Assembly (NCBI RefSeq): GCF_000585375.1
Contig: NZ_KK073874.1
Span: 4,526,001-4,590,000, forward strand
Direction: 5' to 3'
From: Cryptosporangium arvum DSM 44712
GTDB taxonomy: Bacteria; Actinomycetota; Actinomycetes; Mycobacteriales; Cryptosporangiaceae
DNA: 64,000 nt
How positions within the stretch are numbered: position 1 is the first letter of the stretch; each line of letters starts with the position of its first letter. The notes under the pieces are model-generated. The model ran no database searches and was not told the DNA's origin. It saw only the letters and a program-made list of their open reading frames with translations. This document shows, one piece after another, positions 18,279-25,420 of the stretch. The translations under genes were made by a program, and so were the position numbers.

Positions 18279-19429
18279 TGACGTTCGACCTGTTCCGGCT
18301 CTCCGACGACCACGAGGACCTGCGCGCGGCCGTCCGCGACCTGGTCGCGGACAAGATCACGCCGCACGCCGCCGAGGTCGACGCGACCGCGTCGTACCCG
18401 CACGAGGCCCAGGCCGCGCTGGTGGCCGGCGACTTCCACGCCGCCCACGTTCCCGAGGAGTACGGCGGCGTGGGCGCGGACGCGCTCGCGGTGTGCCTGA
18501 TCATCGAGGAGGTCGCGCGCGGCTGCGCGTCCTCGTCGCTGATCCCGGCGGTGAACAAGCTCGGGAGCATGCCGCTGATCCTGGCCGCGTCCGAGGACGT
18601 GAAGCAGCGGTACCTGGCGCCGCTGGCCCGCGGCGAGGGCGGGTTCTCCTACGCGCTCAGCGAGCGGGAGGCCGGCAGCGACACCGCCTCGATGCGCACC
18701 AGGGCCACCCGCGACGGCGACGAGTGGGTGCTCAACGGGGCCAAGGCGTGGATCACCAACGCCGGGGTGTCGGAGTACTACACCGTGCTCGCGATCACCG
18801 ACCCGGACGGCCGCCGCGGCGCCAACGCCACCGCGTTCGTCGTCGAGAAGAGCGACGCCGGGGTGACGTTCGGGGCGCCCGAGCGCAAGCTCGGCATCAA
18901 GGGGTCGCCGACCCGCGAGGTGCTGCTCGACAACGTCCGGATCCCGGACGACCGGCGGGTCGGCGACGTGGGCGACGGTCTGAAGATCGCGCTGAGGACG
19001 CTCGACCACACCCGAGTCACGATCGGAGCGCAGGCCGTCGGCATCGCTCAGGGCGCGCTCGACGTGGCGACCGCGTACGTCCGGGAGCGCAAGCAGTTCG
19101 GCAAGCGGGTGGCCGACTTCCAGGCCATCCAGTTCATGCTGGCCGACATGGCGATCAGCCTGGAGGCCGCCCGGCAGCTGGTGTACGTGGCGGCGGCCAA
19201 GTCCGAGCGTGGCGACGACGACCTCCCGTTCTTCGGCGCGGCCGCGAAGTGCCAGGCCTCGGACACCGCGATGAAGATCACGACCGACGCGGTGCAGCTG
19301 CTCGGCGGGGCCGGGTACACGCAGGACTTCCCGGTGGAGCGGATGATGCGCGACGCGAAGATCACCCAGATCTACGAGGGGACCAACCAGATCCAGCGCC
19401 TGGTGGCGGCCCGGTCACTGCTCCGCTGA
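18278..19429 (+). CDS. Acyl-CoA dehydrogenase
   Basis: FAD-dependent dehydrogenase of 383 aa, matching the length of short-chain acyl-CoA dehydrogenases. The N-terminal helical domain contains HVPEEYGGVGAD; the FAD loop is YALSEREAGSD and WITNAG; the C-terminal helical domain ends with GGAGYTQDFPVERMMRDAKI and IYEGTNQIQR, with the catalytic Glu. It forms an operon with the dehydrogenase upstream, controlled by the divergent TetR. Its last 15 nt overlap the convergent stressosome operon. Confidence 0.95.
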   Translation: MTFDLFRLSDDHEDLRAAVRDLVADKITPHAAEVDATASYPHEAQAALVAGDFHAAHVPEEYGGVGADALAVCLIIEEVARGCASSSLIPAVNKLGSMPLILAASEDVKQRYLAPLARGEGGFSYALSEREAGSDTASMRTRATRDGDEWVLNGAKAWITNAGVSEYYTVLAITDPDGRRGANATAFVVEKSDAGVTFGAPERKLGIKGSPTREVLLDNVRIPDDRRVGDVGDGLKIALRTLDHTRVTIGAQAVGIAQGALDVATAYVRERKQFGKRVADFQAIQFMLADMAISLEAARQLVYVAAAKSERGDDDLPFFGAAAKCQASDTAMKITTDAVQLLGGAGYTQDFPVERMMRDAKITQIYEGTNQIQRLVAARSLLR

Positions 19430-20986
19430 CGTGCGGCGGAGCACGAGCAGCGCGATGTCGTCCTCGCCACGGCTCGCGGCCAGGGCTTGCAGCACTCGGT
19501 CGCAGTAGCGCTCGAGGTCGTCGTCGACGGGCACGGACAGCTGACGCAGCTGCTCCATGCCCTCGTCGATGGCCGTGCCGCGCATCTCGACCAGACCGTC
19601 GGTCACCAGCACGATGCTGCCGCCGTCCGGGATCGTGAACGTCACCTCGGGCCGCTGGAACTGCCCGACGCCGAGGATCGTGCCCCGGACCCCGACGTAG
19701 TCCGTGCCCGCCGCGGTGGCCAGCAGCGGCGGCAGATGGCCCCCGGTGGCGGCGACCGCGGTGCCGGTGGCCGGGTCGACCATGAGCAGCAGCACGGTGG
19801 CCAGCGTCCCCGGGTGGTACCGCCGGAGCATCGCGTCGAGGCGGACCAGGATCCCGGCCGGTCCGTGCCCGTCGACCGCGTAGGCCCGCAGCGCGTGGCG
19901 CAGCTCCGCCATCACGGTGGCCGCGTGCAGCGAGTGGCCGACGACGTCGCCGATCGCGACCAGGAGGCGGTCGTCGACCTCGGCGATCTCGTAGAAGTCA
20001 CCGCCGATCTCGGCGGTCGCGATCGCCGGCACGTACCGGAACGCGACCTCGGCGCCCCGCACCGGCGGCAGATCGCGGGGGAGCAGGCTGTGCTGGATCG
20101 TCAGGGCCACGGTGCGCTCCTCGGCGTAGGAACGCAGCGCGTCGACGGCCAGCGCGGTGGCCTGGCCGAGCTGGCTGAGCAGGTCCCGGTCCTCGTCCTC
20201 GTGCGCGGTGCCCCGCCGGAGCAGCGCGACCGCGGTGGGGGCCCGCCGCGGCCGGGCCGGGACGACCGAGGCCAGCCACGGGGCGTCGGCGTCGGACGAC
20301 TCGAGGGCGTGCCGCCAGCGCGGGGGCGGGTCGGTCACGAGCCGGACGCCTTCCTCGGCGTACCCACCCGCCGCCGGGTGGCGGTACGCGCGGGAGCGGT
20401 CCGCGGACGCCGCCACCGTGATGCCTTCGCCGTCGTGGTCCACCGCGCTGGCCACCGCGGGCGCGTCGAACACCGCGGCCGCGCCGGTCGCGGCCGCGGT
20501 CAGCACGTCCTCGACCGACCGCGCCGCGTTGATGTTCAGCGTCGCTCCGGCCAGCAGCGCGAGCCGGCGGGCCAGCCGCTCGGCGCGCTGCCGGGCCCGC
20601 GAGTAGCGCAACATCGCGTGCGCGGTGGCGACCAGCTCGTCCGGGTCGATCGGCTCGGTCAGGTAGGCGTCCGCACCCTCCGACAGGCCCCGGGCGCGGT
20701 CGCTGACACCGACCGACGTCGCCGACACGAACACGACCGGCACCCCGGCCGCCGCCGGGTTGTTCTTGATCCGGTCGCAGACCGTGAACCCGTCCAGATC
20801 GGGCAGGTTGACGTCGAGGAACACCAGGTCGACGTCGGAGTCGTCGACCCGGGCGAGCGCCTCGGTGCCGGTCGCCGCCTCCACCACCCGGTGCCCGGCC
20901 CGCCGCAGCCAGGTGCCGAGGATGTACCGGTTGGCCGCCGCGTCGTCGACGACGAGCACGGTGGCGGCGCTCTCCGGGCCGGTCAC
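19415..20986 (-). CDS. Response regulator-GAF-SpoIIE/PP2C phosphatase (RsbU-like output)
   Basis: Protein of 523 aa and last gene of the stressosome operon. The N-terminal receiver (about 8-125) has VVDDAAANR and the phospho-acceptor Asp in LVFLDVNLPDLDGF. A GAF-like segment follows (about 150-290). The C-terminal SpoIIE-type PP2C Ser/Thr phosphatase (about 300-515) has EIGGDFYEI, AIGDVVGHSLHAA and VLVTDGLVEMRG, with metal-binding Asp residues. In Bacillus the equivalent step is RsbU, activated by RsbT; here the receiver suggests control by phosphorylation from the hybrid kinase encoded just upstream (GTGA overlap). Its target, an anti-sigma antagonist, is not encoded nearby. Confidence 0.92.
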   Translation of the reverse strand: MTGPESAATVLVVDDAAANRYILGTWLRRAGHRVVEAATGTEALARVDDSDVDLVFLDVNLPDLDGFTVCDRIKNNPAAAGVPVVFVSATSVGVSDRARGLSEGADAYLTEPIDPDELVATAHAMLRYSRARQRAERLARRLALLAGATLNINAARSVEDVLTAAATGAAAVFDAPAVASAVDHDGEGITVAASADRSRAYRHPAAGGYAEEGVRLVTDPPPRWRHALESSDADAPWLASVVPARPRRAPTAVALLRRGTAHEDEDRDLLSQLGQATALAVDALRSYAEERTVALTIQHSLLPRDLPPVRGAEVAFRYVPAIATAEIGGDFYEIAEVDDRLLVAIGDVVGHSLHAATVMAELRHALRAYAVDGHGPAGILVRLDAMLRRYHPGTLATVLLLMVDPATGTAVAATGGHLPPLLATAAGTDYVGVRGTILGVGQFQRPEVTFTIPDGGSIVLVTDGLVEMRGTAIDEGMEQLRQLSVPVDDDLERYCDRVLQALAASRGEDDIALLVLRRTSAEQ

Positions 20987-22710
20987 CGGCGGCGCACCGC
21001 GTCGGCCACGGCCGCCACGTCGAGGCTGGTCTTGGAGAGCACGGTCAGGTGCGGATCGTCGACGGGGGTCCAGCTGGTCTCGGAGGTCACGACGACCACC
21101 GGGGTCGCGGCCAGCGCCTCCTCGGCGCGCAGCCCGGCCAGGATCTCCTCGCCGCTCACCCCGGGCATCCGCAGGTCGAGGAACACCACGTGCGGGCGCA
21201 CCCGCCGGATCAACGGCAGCGCTTCGCGGGCGTCGGCCACCTCGGCGATCTCGCGGTCGTCGTCGTCGACCGCGTCGAGCGCCGAGCGCAGTACCCGCCG
21301 GAACGTCGGGTCGTCGTCGACGACGACGATCCGGATCGGGCCCGACGCCGGCGCCGCGATCTCGTCGGCCGGTCGCTGCGGTTCGCGGGGGAGCACGACG
21401 GTGACCGTGGTGCCCTCACCGGGGGCGCTGCGCAGGTCGAGCTCGCCGCCCAGCGCCGCCACCAGCCGGCGGACCAGCGCCAGCCCGAGCCCGGTGCCGC
21501 CCACCTGGGCCTGCAGCGCTCCCGGCACCTGGTAGAACTCCTCGAAGATGCGTTCGTGCTGGTCGGCCTCGATCCCGATGCCGGTGTCCGTGACGACGAA
21601 CGTGATCGTCCCCGCCTCGGCCCGCACGTCCAGGCGCACCTCGCCGCGCACCGTGTACTTCAGCGCGTTCGTCATCAGGTTGCGCAGCACCTGGGTCAGC
21701 AGGAGGCCGTCGCTGACCAGGTCCGGCGGCGGATCGGGGTCGGCCACCGCCAGCGTGACGTCCGCGCGTGCGTTCGCCGGGCCCAGCGCGGCACGCAGCT
21801 GCCCGAGCAGCACGCGCAGGTCCACCGGCTCCCAGGCCGGCTGGATCCGGGTCGCTTCGGCCTTCGCCAGGTCGAGCAGGTCGTTGACCATCCGCAGGAG
21901 GTCGGCCGCGGAGTGCCCGACCAGCTCGATCTGGTGCTCCTGCTCGGCCGAGAACGGCGGGTCGGCCACCGTGGTCATCACCCGCACCAGCCCGAGGATC
22001 GAGTTCACCGGGGCCCGCAGCTCGTGGTTGACGTGACGCAGGAACCGGGTCTTGGCGTCGTTGGCCTCACGCAGCCGCTGGGAGCGGTCCTCCAGCTCGG
22101 CGTAGAGGGCGACCACACCCTGGTTCGTGTGTTCCAGTTCCTCGGTCAGCTCGTTGTAGAGGGCGAGTACACCCCGGTTGGTCTCCTCGAGTTCCTCGTT
22201 CATGCGGATCTGCGAGTCCCGGCTGCGTTCGGCCTCGTCCAGCGCGGCGAGCAGCTCCTGGTTCTGCCGCCACAGCTCGTCGGCCGGGGTGGTGGGGCGC
22301 AGGGCGGCGAGCTCGGCCCGCACCAGGGCCGGGTCGATCGGCGTCCGGACGGTCTTGACCAGCGTGATCGTGACGTGGTCCGCGTCCTGCACGACGCGCA
22401 GGTCGTCGACGAGCCGGGCCGCGCCGGCCAGGCCGTCCGGGCCCGGGCGCTCGCGGACGCCGGTCAGCGTGCGGTCCGTGACGCCGGACAACTCGACGCG
22501 CAGCGCGCGGAGCGCCACGCGGAACAGCGCGGTCACCGCCGTGGGCGCGGCGAGCAGTACCCGGCCGATCTCGCTCAGCGCGGTGGCCACCCGGGTCTGG
22601 TCGGACGCGTCCAGGCCGACCGCCGCGGCGACCGCCCGCCCGCTGTGGCGCAGGGCGAACACGTCGGCCTCGCCGCGCAGGTGCACGCGCAGGACGACGT
22701 CGTCGTTCAC
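20983..22710 (-). CDS. Hybrid histidine kinase-receiver with degenerate RsbT-like N-terminus
   Basis: Cytoplasmic protein of 575 aa. Residues ~1-125 resemble RsbT/RsbW kinases (LDASDQTRVATALSEIGRVLL aligns with the RsbT segment of 23753-24181), but the N-box Asn is replaced by Val. A coiled coil (about 140-220) holds two copies of LExTNxGVxALYxEL (174-188 and 192-206). HisKA has His229 in RHVNHELRAP; HATPase_c follows (NALKYTV, DTGIGI, GGTGLGLALV); a receiver at the end has Asp in VVFLDLRMPGVSG. Start: GTG 22710 overlaps the previous stop by 4 nt; GTG 22719 is possible. It likely passes stressosome state to the receiver-phosphatase. Confidence 0.9.
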   Translation of the reverse strand: MNDDVVLRVHLRGEADVFALRHSGRAVAAAVGLDASDQTRVATALSEIGRVLLAAPTAVTALFRVALRALRVELSGVTDRTLTGVRERPGPDGLAGAARLVDDLRVVQDADHVTITLVKTVRTPIDPALVRAELAALRPTTPADELWRQNQELLAALDEAERSRDSQIRMNEELEETNRGVLALYNELTEELEHTNQGVVALYAELEDRSQRLREANDAKTRFLRHVNHELRAPVNSILGLVRVMTTVADPPFSAEQEHQIELVGHSAADLLRMVNDLLDLAKAEATRIQPAWEPVDLRVLLGQLRAALGPANARADVTLAVADPDPPPDLVSDGLLLTQVLRNLMTNALKYTVRGEVRLDVRAEAGTITFVVTDTGIGIEADQHERIFEEFYQVPGALQAQVGGTGLGLALVRRLVAALGGELDLRSAPGEGTTVTVVLPREPQRPADEIAAPASGPIRIVVVDDDPTFRRVLRSALDAVDDDDREIAEVADAREALPLIRRVRPHVVFLDLRMPGVSGEEILAGLRAEEALAATPVVVVTSETSWTPVDDPHLTVLSKTSLDVAAVADAVRRR

Positions 22711-23765
22711 GGCCGGCACTTCAGGACGAGAACGCCGGCGTCGTCGCGGCGGGTACCGGCGTCACGCAGGAGCACGGAGGCGATCACCAGCGGGTCGTGG
22801 CCGGCCAGCCCCCACTGCCCGTCGAACGACCAGCGTGAGTTCAGGCCGTCGGTGTGCAGCACGATCAGCGCGTTCTCCGCGGCGGGGTAGTCGAACGACC
22901 GGATCGTGCGGGCCTGGTGCCCGGCGATGCCCGGCATCGACGTGAGGTGCCGGCCGCGCTCGCCGGCCCACAGGACCGCTCCGGCGATGTTGCCCAGCCC
23001 GGCGAACTGGACGAGGCCGCGGGACACGTCGTGGCGCACGACGCCCACCGCGGCGCCCCGCGTCGGCTTCAGCTCCCGGTGCAGCCGGGTGACCAGCGCG
23101 GTCACGTCCTCGTCGGCGGTGTCGAGGAACACCTCGACCGCGCGCTGGGCCGCGCGGGCGGCCAGCGGGCCGTGCCCGAGGCCGTCGCAGAGCACGGCCA
23201 CCACGCCGTCCGCGGTGCGCCGGACGGCGTAGGCGTCACCGCACGCGCTCTCCCCGGCCATCGGCCGGGTGAGCCCGGCCGCGCGTTCCCCGCCCGGCTG
23301 CGCCGGTTGCCCGATCCGGGTCAGCGGGCGGCGCGGGGCCGCGAACCGCGCGGCGACGACCGTGCCGCGCCCCGGCTGGGACCAGGCGTCGAACGTCGAC
23401 GCCAGGCGGGTGACCGCGCCGAGCCCCACGCCGAGCGTGCCGCCGGTCGAGTACCCGTCACGCAGGTGCGCCTCGAAGTCCTCCAGACCCGGCCCGGCGT
23501 CGAGCGCGACCACCTCGACGGCCGGGTCGGCGGTATCGGAGTCCGAGAGGTACGGGCGGGTGAGGCGTAACGCCACCGCGCCGTGGTGGGCGTGGCGGTG
23601 CAGGTTGCCGGCCAGCTCGGTGACCGCGATCGCCAGCTCGCCCGTGCGCGCCTCGTCGAAACCGGCCCGGCCGGCCAGCCCGGTCGCCATCCGCCGGGCG
23701 GCCCCGACCGCGCTGGTGTCGTCGATCGGGATCCAGAGCGTCTCCGCCCCGATCAACGACTCCAC
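22707..23765 (-). CDS. RsbT-like ATPase fused to RsbX/SpoIIE-type phosphatase
   Basis: Protein of 352 aa. The N-terminal half (about 1-150) is a GHKL ATPase of the anti-sigma kinase type, with ELAIAVTELAGNLHRHAHHGA and LDAGPG followed by GGTLGVGLGAVTRL. The C-terminal half (about 175-350) is a PP2C of the small RsbX type, with CGDAYAVRR, VAVLCDGLGHG and LIVLHTDGLNSRW. RsbX removes phosphate from RsbR and RsbS to reset the stressosome in Bacillus; the fused RsbT-like part may compete with RsbT. Start: GTG 23765 (13-nt overlap with rsbT); TTG 23756 is an alternative. All neighbours are coupled the same way. Confidence 0.9.
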   Translation of the reverse strand: MESLIGAETLWIPIDDTSAVGAARRMATGLAGRAGFDEARTGELAIAVTELAGNLHRHAHHGAVALRLTRPYLSDSDTADPAVEVVALDAGPGLEDFEAHLRDGYSTGGTLGVGLGAVTRLASTFDAWSQPGRGTVVAARFAAPRRPLTRIGQPAQPGGERAAGLTRPMAGESACGDAYAVRRTADGVVAVLCDGLGHGPLAARAAQRAVEVFLDTADEDVTALVTRLHRELKPTRGAAVGVVRHDVSRGLVQFAGLGNIAGAVLWAGERGRHLTSMPGIAGHQARTIRSFDYPAAENALIVLHTDGLNSRWSFDGQWGLAGHDPLVIASVLLRDAGTRRDDAGVLVLKCRP

Positions 23766-24181
23766 TTGGCCACCGTGATCCGGGTGCCCCGGCCGACCTC
23801 GGTGTCGAGGTCGAACTCGTCGACGAGCCGGCGGGAACCGGACAGCCCGAGGCCCAACCCTCCACCGGAGGTGTAGCCGTCGGTCATCGCCAGGTCGATG
23901 TCGGCGATGCCCGGTCCGTCGTCGGCGAACACGATCCGCACGCCGCGCCGGAGGCCGTTCTGCACCGCGGTGACCTCGGCGACCCCGCCCCCGCCGTAGA
24001 GCAGCGTGTTGCGGGCCAGCTCGCTCGCCGCGGTGACGAGCTTCGTCTGGTCGATCAGCGACAGCTTGACCGCCACCGCGACCGACCGGACCAGCTGCCG
24101 CACCCGCACCACGTCCTCGTCGGACGCGATCGGCTGCCGCTGCGGCTGGCCGGTGGCCGGCAGGGTCACGGCCGGACTCAC
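23753..24181 (-). CDS. rsbT: RsbT, stressosome switch kinase
   Basis: Serine/threonine protein kinase of the GHKL fold, 142 aa, as in Bacillus RsbT. N-box: ASELARNTLLYGGGG; G1: FADDGPGI; G2: SGGGLGLGLSGSRRLVDEF. Known role in the family: held by RsbS in the stressosome, it phosphorylates RsbR and RsbS under stress, is released and activates a PP2C phosphatase. Here the phosphatases are encoded directly downstream. Start GTG 24181 overlaps rsbS by 4 nt. Confidence 0.93.
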   Translation of the reverse strand: MSPAVTLPATGQPQRQPIASDEDVVRVRQLVRSVAVAVKLSLIDQTKLVTAASELARNTLLYGGGGVAEVTAVQNGLRRGVRIVFADDGPGIADIDLAMTDGYTSGGGLGLGLSGSRRLVDEFDLDTEVGRGTRITVAKWSR

Positions 24182-24591
24182 CGGCTCTCGGGTGCGCGCA
24201 GCGACGGCGCGATCGACGGGGAGTCCCCGGCGCCGTCCGCCCAGGCCCGGCGCAGCAGCGCCAGGCCCTTCTCCAGGTTCAGCGCGGTACGCACCTCACC
24301 CAGCGACAGCCCCAGCTCGACGAGCGTGATCGCCACCGCGGGGCGCATGCCCACGACGACGGTGTCGGCGTCGAGCAGCCGGGACACCGACGCGGTCGTG
24401 GCCAGGATCCGGCCGATGAACGAGTCGACGATCTCCAGCGCGGTGATGTCGATGACGACACCGCGCGCCCCGGTCGCGGTGATGCGCTCGGCCAGCGCGT
24501 CCTGCATCGCCAGCGCCGTCTGGTCGGACAGGTCGACCTGGATCGAGAGCAGCAGGACGTCGTCGAGCTTGAGGATCGGGATCGAGGTCAC
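24178..24591 (-). CDS. rsbS: RsbS, stressosome STAS scaffold
   Basis: Single STAS domain of 137 aa. The phospho-acceptor Ser57 in ITALEIVDSFIGRIL corresponds to Ser59 of Bacillus RsbS, and the second site, Thr89 in VAITLVELGL, is also present. The C-terminal ~20 residues extend beyond the usual length (about 120). In the family RsbS forms the stressosome core with RsbR and traps RsbT until phosphorylated. It starts 1 nt after the rsbR stop and overlaps rsbT by 4 nt. Confidence 0.94.
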   Translation of the reverse strand: MTSIPILKLDDVLLLSIQVDLSDQTALAMQDALAERITATGARGVVIDITALEIVDSFIGRILATTASVSRLLDADTVVVGMRPAVAITLVELGLSLGEVRTALNLEKGLALLRRAWADGAGDSPSIAPSLRAPESR

Positions 24592-24592
24592 G

Positions 24593-25420
24593 TCACGCCC
24601 CGGCCGCGGCGCGGTGGGCGTCCTGGCGGCGCCGGGCCAGCGACAGGGCGTCGGCCAGGCTGGACTTGGTCGCGATGTCGCCGAACTCGATGCCGAGCGC
24701 GACGATGGTCTGGGCGATCTGCGGGCGGATGCCGGAGATGATGGCCTCCGCGCCCATGAGGCGGGCCGCCATCACGGTCTTGAGCAGGTGCTGGGCGACC
24801 TGGGTGTCGACCGCGGGCACGCCGGTGATGTCGATGATCGCGTAGTCGGCGTCGTACGAGGTGAGCGCCTCGAGTAACTGCTCCATGACCGCCTGCGCCC
24901 GCGCCGAGTCGAGCGTGCCGACCAGCGGGACGGCGATGATGCCGTCCCAGAGCTTCACCACCGGGGTGGACAGCTCCAGCAACTGCTCCGCCTGCTCCGC
25001 GATGATCTGCTCCCGGGCCTGCGAGTACGCCTCGAACGTCTGCAGGCCGAGGTCGTCGATCAGCCGCGAGAACTCGAGGAACCCGCTCAGCGGCGTGTCG
25101 TCGCCGGCCCGGCGGCCGACGACCTCCTTGAGCGCGAACACGCTCACCGCCGTCTCGCGGGGGGAGAAGCCCTGGATCGCGCGGGCGCGGGAGAGTTCGG
25201 ACAGCAGCGCGCGTAACTCGCCGAACGGATCGGCGTCGGCGGCGTCGTCCAGCCCGGCCTGCAGGGCGCGGTACAGGTCGGCCAGCTCGGACCGGACCTC
25301 CGCCCGGCTGACGCGTCCGCGGAGGCTGTCGGCGACGATCGCGGTCCACTCGTCGACGATGCCCTCCGGGTCGCCCGCGAGGACGGGCACGAGGCCCTGC
25401 GGCGAGTGGGTCTGCGACAT
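24593..25420 (-). CDS. rsbR: RsbR co-antagonist, stressosome sensor
   Basis: Protein of 275 aa and first gene of the operon. The N-terminal ~145 residues are a helical sensor of the RsbRD type (SLRGRVSRAEVRSELADLYRAL). The STAS domain (about 155-270) has PVVKLWDGIIAVPLVGTLDSARA, Thr206 in VDTQVAQHLL and Thr238 in IRPQIAQTIVALGI, equivalents of the two Thr residues phosphorylated by RsbT (Thr171 and Thr205 in RsbRA). No haem or flavin motif is visible, so the signal is unknown. Start: ATG 25420 (MSQTHSPQGL) with GGAG upstream. Confidence 0.94.
   Translation of the reverse strand: MSQTHSPQGLVPVLAGDPEGIVDEWTAIVADSLRGRVSRAEVRSELADLYRALQAGLDDAADADPFGELRALLSELSRARAIQGFSPRETAVSVFALKEVVGRRAGDDTPLSGFLEFSRLIDDLGLQTFEAYSQAREQIIAEQAEQLLELSTPVVKLWDGIIAVPLVGTLDSARAQAVMEQLLEALTSYDADYAIIDITGVPAVDTQVAQHLLKTVMAARLMGAEAIISGIRPQIAQTIVALGIEFGDIATKSSLADALSLARRRQDAHRAAAGA

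Follow-up and report, generated by a model that had tools for sequence, protein, structure and literature searches.

Stressosome modules of the RsbRSTX type with variable downstream modules were reportedly described by Pane-Farre in 2005 and 2017, and the RsbK/RsbM/RsbY system of Bacillus cereus is said to have been described by de Been in 2011. In Bacillus, the usual receptor domain for RsbT is RsbU_N. RsbRSTX modules with two-component, cyclic di-guanosine monophosphate (c-di-GMP) or PP2C outputs have been published (PMC9237108; PMC10014275), so the combination of a stressosome with a two-component/PP2C output, which headed an earlier sequence-only reading of the locus considered here, is not new. 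In the account of Heinz 2022, RsbU_N occurs in some downstream proteins and is lacking from most, RsbT-dependent phosphorylation is suggested, and an interaction between RsbT and VvD1 could not be shown (PMC9237108). Here we analyze a 64,000-nucleotide window from Cryptosporangium arvum DSM 44712 (positions 4526001–4590000 of a single 9,195,993-base contig), in which a six-gene operon runs from rsbR, rsbS and rsbT through an rsbX-like gene to a hybrid histidine kinase and a receiver–PP2C phosphatase. The N-terminus of this kinase is identified as an RsbT paralogue that has lost its ATP site. We regard this pseudo-RsbT domain on a stressosome output kinase as the new element; a search of open-licence PMC papers turned up no output kinase described as bearing a domain derived from RsbT, though older work may show one.

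The operon resembles other RsbRSTX modules in that rsbR-rsbS-rsbT-rsbX are followed by genes for kinases, receivers or PP2C proteins, with no local sigma factor; section 10 of the Heinz review mentions no output kinase with an RsbT-like domain (PMC9237108), whereas the window kinase has one. With RsbK/RsbM/RsbY of B. cereus it shares a hybrid kinase whose H-box is preceded by a signalling helix, and a REC–PP2C regulator (PMC4574943). It differs from that system in being joined to a stressosome, in having no RsbV, RsbW, sigma factor or methyltransferase among its six genes, in the dead RsbT domain at the kinase N-terminus, and in a kinase receiver that is often lost among orthologues. RsfS/RsfR of Mycobacterium smegmatis likewise comprises a histidine kinase that controls a receiver–PP2C acting on an anti-anti-sigma factor; there, however, RsfS bears a CHASE3 sensor, the abstract names no stressosome, and phosphorylation lowers RsfR activity (PMC10950880). 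In the RsbRSTX-D1-D2 locus of Vibrio vulnificus, too, the stressosome genes precede a kinase and a response regulator (PMC9237108; PMC10014275), but the output is thought to be c-di-GMP, and no RsbT signal was obtained for the D1-like kinase tested here (from Vibrio sp. THAF191d). Outputs in Moorella and proteobacteria share RsbT-linked control of non-sigma effectors, yet use RsbU_N, not an RsbT paralogue, as the entry domain (PMC12143880).

Over the N-terminal 150 residues of the kinase, no Pfam match was obtained in any of 23 family members at E ≤ 0.01, the cut-off used for domain calls on all six proteins; descent from RsbT would explain a domain that is invisible to Pfam. Profile–profile comparison (hhalign) matched residues of about 11–125 to RsbT at 97.9% (E 5.6e-13); the corresponding values were 3.2% with the rsbX-like protein and 0.4% with the product of the last gene. 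In a second run RsbT scored 97.1%, while the other five operon-family profiles reached at most 4.1%, and one reversed and ten column-shuffled controls at most 2%; chance or composition was rejected as the source of the match on the strength of these comparisons. An AlphaFold model of the domain (mean predicted local distance difference test score 86.9) had as its nearest PDB folds in Foldseek chains of RsbV/RsbW complexes (6m37 chain C, E 3.8e-6), UsfX (8ih8) and SpoIIAB (1l0o). Chain A of 6m36 is RsbW, and the remaining matched chains of RsbV/RsbW complexes are presumed to be RsbW as well. By fold and profile the domain therefore belongs with the RsbT/SpoIIAB switch kinases, but it lacks the N-box asparagine and the catalytic G-box residues of that group. 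The identification of the kinase N-terminus (residues ~8–125) as an RsbT paralogue, a pseudo-kinase derivative, is strong. The sequence-only reading had described the protein as a hybrid kinase–receiver and had overlooked this domain.

Conservation was followed over 103 kinase rows, made up of the window, 22 loci from the same order and 80 loci from named genomes; 97 of the rows are distinct by their last 250 residues, because six of the 22 order-search records are also among the 80. In the RsbT numbering of the window, the equivalents of N58 and D87 were kept in none of these rows, and R28, R32, A51, S53 and R57 in all 103. In Listeria RsbT the residues aligned with R28 and R32 are R19 and R23. 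In B. subtilis RsbT, residues R19, R23 and N24 have been implicated in RsbU binding (PMC12143880). Because the ATP site is lost and the arginines are kept, the domain has the look of a non-catalytic docking module. It is followed by a helix with two TNxGVxALY repeats, a pattern present in every row and in two copies in 101; its resemblance to the signalling helix of RsbK is one of position and name rather than of aligned sequence. Possibly, the domain could instead be a vestigial dimerization module, the kinase having a signal of its own and sharing the operon for co-expression only. The eroded ATP site would fit such a history, as would a mean column identity lower than that of RsbT (58% over the 23 rows of alignment A2 versus 73% over the 28 rows of A3). 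Yet 17 columns are invariant over the 23 rows, two arginines are kept over 103, and rsbRST adjoins the kinase gene at all uncut loci examined; we consider a vestigial domain improbable.

This linkage was surveyed with the kinase N-terminus as query against 200 genomes of the same order. Matches were obtained in 70 genomes at E ≤ 0.001 and in 28, the window's own included, at E < 1e-45; the order R-S-T-X-kinase-PP2C was present in all 22 examined neighborhoods of the other 27 genomes, with overlaps mostly of a few bases. A scan of named genomes yielded 262 relatives, and at the best 80 of these the six genes stood in order at 78 loci; the other two are truncated where their contigs end. In L126, one of the 78, the X and kinase genes are at least 79 bases apart; Nonomuraea and Embleya carry the full six-gene set. 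The genera of the 80 loci are placed in the Micromonosporaceae, Pseudonocardiaceae, Streptosporangiaceae and Thermomonosporaceae. Chance does not account for the arrangement, since it forms one block in 22/22 and 78/78 uncut loci across four actinobacterial families, and the genome comparison that the sequence-only reading had proposed for the six-gene order thus bears it out. As the kinase was the query, the counts describe what travels with the kinase and not how common stressosomes are. In the flanks of the 80 loci (up to 8 kb, shorter at eight loci), a profile built from the sigma factors of the window genome found a SigB/F/G-like match at one locus, on the opposite strand.

Turning to fused RsbT domains elsewhere, RsbT was matched in 105 plasmid records, and a total of 17 regions was examined. 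In Deinococcus radiodurans MP1 and Deinococcus sp. KNUC1210, a kinase encoded directly after an rsbX-like gene carries an N-terminal RsbT domain in which the N-box and G-box are present. Intact fused domains on kinases at the same position were also found in Sphingomonas, two Paraburkholderia, Phaeobacter and Salipiger, with one G-box glycine replaced by alanine in P. aromaticivorans; the signalling-helix pattern is present in the two Deinococcus kinases and that of Sphingomonas. At two Streptomyces loci, an eroded RsbT domain and helix are fused directly to a PP2C with no kinase between, and the one such N-domain tested by hhalign gave 95.4%. A tree was built from 66 hand-picked domains (18 kinase, 31 RsbT, 9 other fused and 8 rsbX-like; unrooted, with three RsbT rows failing the composition check). 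It separates the fused domains of kinases and PP2Cs from the free RsbT and rsbX domains (branch support 95/88), and within the fused side the eroded actinobacterial domains, including those on Streptomyces PP2Cs, form a 100/100 group on a long branch. Two other origins of the window domain were rejected: recent tandem duplication of its own rsbT, as the kinase domains group with other fused domains and not with that gene, and copying of the rsbX-like HATPase, given the hhalign value of 3.2% and the placement of X with free RsbT in the unrooted tree.

These observations suggest, tentatively and at slightly less than even confidence, a general class of "tethered RsbT" outputs, in which RsbT would have been duplicated once and fused to an effector, often via a signalling-helix linker, replacing RsbU_N as the entry. 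The same joint reading takes the ATP motifs to be kept in Deinococcus and some Proteobacteria and dead in Actinobacteria, with the module portable between histidine kinases and PP2Cs. If RsbT is fused to the effector, the effector itself would therefore dock on the stressosome. Another use of the domain would be as a receptor for free RsbT, with released RsbT pairing with it in the manner of SpoIIAB and the pair switching the kinase on. The fold shared with the anti-sigma kinases (presumably dimeric), the kept RsbT contact arginines and the lack of RsbU_N matches in the window genome are consistent with a receptor, but fused RsbT domains whose ATP motifs remain intact, as in Deinococcus and others, fit docking on STAS domains better than a passive receptor; we judge this alternative unlikely.

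RsbU_N had no match in the genome of the window at E ≤ 0.001, and neither RsbU_N nor sigma domains were found in the six operon proteins by Pfam. Taking the 200-genome sets of the kinase and RsbU_N searches as one, since the listed identifiers agree, RsbU_N occurs in 21 of the 200 genomes and in none of the 28 that bear the kinase. The lack of an RsbU_N match in the window genome bears on the wiring first proposed for the locus, in which released RsbT acts directly on the receiver–PP2C or the HATPase–PP2C and converges there with a separate phosphorelay. There is a precedent in Bacillus, where RsbT activates the PP2C RsbU via its N-terminal domain and linker (PMC12143880). However, RsbU_N was found on neither PP2C of the operon, and the last protein has a REC domain and a GAF-like region in its place; we hold direct action of RsbT on a phosphatase to be very improbable. 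Gene anatomy and strict conservation do fit the other half of that model, a route from stressosome through a two-component system to a PP2C without a local sigma factor. Within this route the kinase is a likelier entry point than the phosphatase, because it carries the dead RsbT paralogue.

The stressosome proteins were mapped onto the RsbT, RsbR and RsbS of a Listeria record; their tallies rest on 101 rows each, as they leave out rows truncated by the end of a contig. RsbS Ser57, aligned with Listeria Ser56, is Ser in 101/101 rows, and RsbR Thr206, aligned with Listeria Thr209, is Thr in 101/101. The phospho-sites of Listeria RsbR are Thr175 and Thr209 (PMC7358398). Thr175 aligns with Ser172 of the window, which is Ser in 100 rows and a gap in one. 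Two phospho-sites named in the sequence-only reading, RsbS Ser57 and RsbR Thr206, thus stand, and its second RsbR site moves from Thr238 to Ser172. In RsbT, N58, D87, G89, G91, G108, G110 and G112 are invariant in the 101 rows. The operon accordingly encodes an RsbRST module with an RsbR sensor, STAS domain and two acceptor residues (Ser for Thr at 172), the RsbS serine and the RsbT ATP site. The motif residues of the rsbX-like protein, aligned in 14 rows (A5), are conserved over 103 rows with 0–2 gaps per column, one glycine being alanine in five rows.

On the output side, His232, N347, N351, D378, G380, G382, G408 and G410 of the kinase are kept in 103/103 rows. The C-terminal receiver on the kinase is a lineage trait: its aspartate is kept in 29 of the 103 rows, falls in a gap in 67 and is another residue in seven, and the term hybrid kinase–receiver is apt for the window protein but not for most orthologue rows. 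In the product of the last gene, D14, D15 and D58 of the receiver and D330, D347, D463, D509 and D510 of the PP2C domain are kept in all 103 rows. Its earlier description as receiver–GAF–PP2C holds for REC and PP2C by Pfam, whereas the GAF domain had no Pfam match at E ≤ 0.01; residues 158–260 look GAF-like in our reading of the predicted secondary structure. In the Deinococcus, Xanthomonas and Variovorax counterparts, histidine stands at the usual receiver lysine position, as judged by eye. Two features of RsbK/RsbY-type systems are present, namely a helix before HisKA (assigned by pattern and position) and a REC–PP2C protein, and RsbM and a neighboring RsbV/RsbW/sigB set are not. No RsbV, RsbW, sigB or RsbM methyltransferase gene was found among the six genes, the rest of the genome not having been searched for RsbM, and the Bacillus-type sigB operon, with RsbV, RsbW, sigB and an RsbU carrying RsbU_N, does not describe the locus.

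Targets of the phosphatase may lie elsewhere in the genome, which holds seven SigB/F/G-type sigma matches and ten anti-anti-sigma matches over the cut-off. RsbV-like, RsbW-like and SigB/F/G-like matches cluster near 6.705–6.708 Mb and near 7.610–7.614 Mb, in answer to an earlier suggestion to look for an RsbV/RsbW pair outside the locus, and these clusters are plausible candidate targets in trans. A classically controlled sigma factor or RsbVW operon, which the sequence-only reading had named as evidence that would count against it, is absent from the operon. Separately, an anti-anti-sigma-like match at genome positions 1938811–1939113 contains an in-frame TAG and is perhaps a pseudogene.

We propose that the operon encodes an RsbRSTX stressosome with an RsbK/RsbY-like two-component PP2C output, joined by the dead RsbT paralogue fused to the kinase, and we give this reading an even chance. 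The dead domain most likely docks the kinase to the stressosome or to RsbT. At rest, free RsbT and the pseudo-RsbT domain of the kinase would both be docked on STAS surfaces of RsbS and RsbR. Upon stress, RsbT would phosphorylate RsbS Ser57 and RsbR Thr206, and the docking surface would be lost; the freed pair of pseudo-RsbT domains could then re-set the helix leading to HisKA, altering kinase activity and phosphorylation of Asp58 in the receiver of the last gene. The candidate phosphotransfer would run from His232 to Asp58, both of which are kept in 103/103 rows. The phosphatase would in turn alter the phosphorylation state of RsbV-like anti-anti-sigma factors from other loci, its plausible substrates, and the rsbX-like protein would reset the complex. 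Precedents for the sign of the switch conflict: phosphorylation is described as activating RsbY (PMC4574943) and as inhibiting RsfR (PMC10950880). Phosphorylation of the window phosphatase could therefore act either way.

Several observations weigh against this proposal. In the N-domain, the partner of the arginine face could be RsbT or RsbS/RsbR, or there may be none; the column of N24, the third residue implicated in RsbU binding, is mostly threonine in RsbT and glutamate in the kinase rows, and this residue is thus not kept; R32 is methionine in the fused domain of Phaeobacter; and individual G-box glycine columns survive in 3 to 35 of the 103 kinase rows. A PDB sequence-profile search with the domain returned no relative at E ≤ 1, so that the link by fold comes from a predicted model. 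In the tree, support for the fused-domain branch is moderate (95/88) with the eroded clade on a long branch, and the order among the intact fused domains is not resolved (82/36 at the first fork). Four of the seven intact fused kinases (both Paraburkholderia, Phaeobacter and Salipiger) gave no match to the signalling-helix pattern, and the Xanthomonas and Variovorax kinases at the same position have the helix and lack the RsbT domain. Extension to a Vibrio D1-like kinase that appeared similar by eye was rejected, as hhalign remained at the level of shuffled controls (one sequence, three plasmid records). Because of the Xanthomonas, Variovorax and Vibrio kinases, a fused RsbT module is not needed everywhere. 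The mutual exclusion of kinase and RsbU_N has an unadjusted probability of 0.035, which ignores the relatedness of the genomes. Finally, residue 111 of the last gene (window 20654–20656), taken by eye from alignment A4 as the usual lysine position of the receiver, is glutamate in 97 and aspartate in six of the 103 rows, the usual lysine being absent.

The six open frames lie on the minus strand from 25420 to 19415 in the order rsbR–rsbS–rsbT–rsbX-like–kinase–(receiver–PP2C) (Table 1). With the chosen starts, and counted from rsbR onward, they are separated by a 1-nucleotide gap and then overlap by 4, 13, 13 and 4 nucleotides. The sequence-only reading was right on the coordinates and kinds of the six genes, on their tight packing (overlaps of 4–13 nucleotides or 1 nucleotide apart), on the lack of RsbU, RsbV, RsbW and sigB among them, and on an RsbT-like/PP2C fusion, borne out by Pfam matches to HATPase_c_2 and SpoIIE. 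A plus-strand frame that resembles an acyl-CoA dehydrogenase (named by eye) ends at 19429 and overlaps the last operon gene tail-to-tail by 15 bases (19415–19429).

Table 1. Genes and domains of the stressosome operon, in window coordinates
Feature	Position	Strand	Assignment and basis
rsbR	24593..25420	-	RsbRD_N PF14361 (E 2e-20) and STAS PF01740 (E 9.8e-14); putative phospho-sites Ser172 and Thr206
rsbS	24178..24591	-	Single STAS (Pfam); Ser57
rsbT	23753..24181	-	HATPase (Pfam); intact switch kinase with N58, D87-x-G-x-G91 and G108-G112
rsbX-like fusion	22707..23765	-	HATPase of RsbT/RsbW fold, motifs intact, and SpoIIE/PP2C (Pfam)
HATPase_c_2 domain of the rsbX-like fusion (residues 18-139)	23349..23714	-	Pfam
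Hybrid histidine kinase	20983..22719	-	Pseudo-RsbT, signalling-helix-like repeats; HisKA, HATPase and REC (Pfam)
Pseudo-RsbT domain without ATP site (kinase residues 8-125)	22345..22698	-	hhalign, AlphaFold, Foldseek
Helix with two TNxGVxALY repeats (kinase residues 170-212)	22084..22212	-	Pattern match
Response-regulator phosphatase, RsbY-like	19415..20986	-	REC and SpoIIE (Pfam); GAF-like by AlphaFold secondary structure
Atypical receiver of the last gene (Asp58 present; Glu111 where Lys is usual)	20624..20959	-	
SpoIIE/PP2C catalytic domain of the last gene	19433..19975	-	Pfam (E 3.1e-38); tested Asp residues intact

Other stressosome loci met in the searches differ in their outputs. Four R-S-T-X-PP2C loci without a kinase (L102–L105) encode a PP2C whose N-terminus is followed by a signalling-helix-like stretch. 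This N-terminus scored 50% (E 1.6e-4) against the fused domains and 30% against RsbT, and may be another pseudo-RsbT, an assignment that is suggestive only. At eight T-R-S loci of the same order as the window (L093–L098, L100 and L101), an RsbU_N match directly follows rsbS in 8/8, as a free-standing 100-amino-acid frame in L093 and L094. RsbT at these loci makes up the C-terminal portion of a longer open frame (at least 358 amino acids). Four of these frames were inspected, and in the one at L093 (7811–6735, minus strand) Sigma70_r2 and Sigma70_r4_2 precede the HATPase, a sigma–RsbT fusion. Records from Listeria and Stenotrophomonas show the classic sigB arrangement. The latter is a plasmid record of Stenotrophomonas rhizophila (L201, CP031730.1) with a Bacillus-type alr-mazF-rsbT-phosphatase-rsbW-sigB order, and is possibly a foreign or misassigned contig. 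An archaeal record encodes a PAS multi-sensor protein downstream of its stressosome genes. In Vibrio sp. THAF191d (L200, 7457–10630), a D1-like kinase of 1057 amino acids accompanies a receiver protein; RsbT-like spacing was seen by eye at the N-terminus of the kinase, without profile support.

How stressosomes reach kinases and phosphatases that lack RsbU_N is not settled in earlier work (PMC9237108), and an RsbT copy, dead or live, built into the output kinase offers a concrete, testable answer. If this is true, the domain would be a bacterial pseudo-kinase serving as an adaptor, through which the stressosome would drive a two-component pathway without its usual adaptor.

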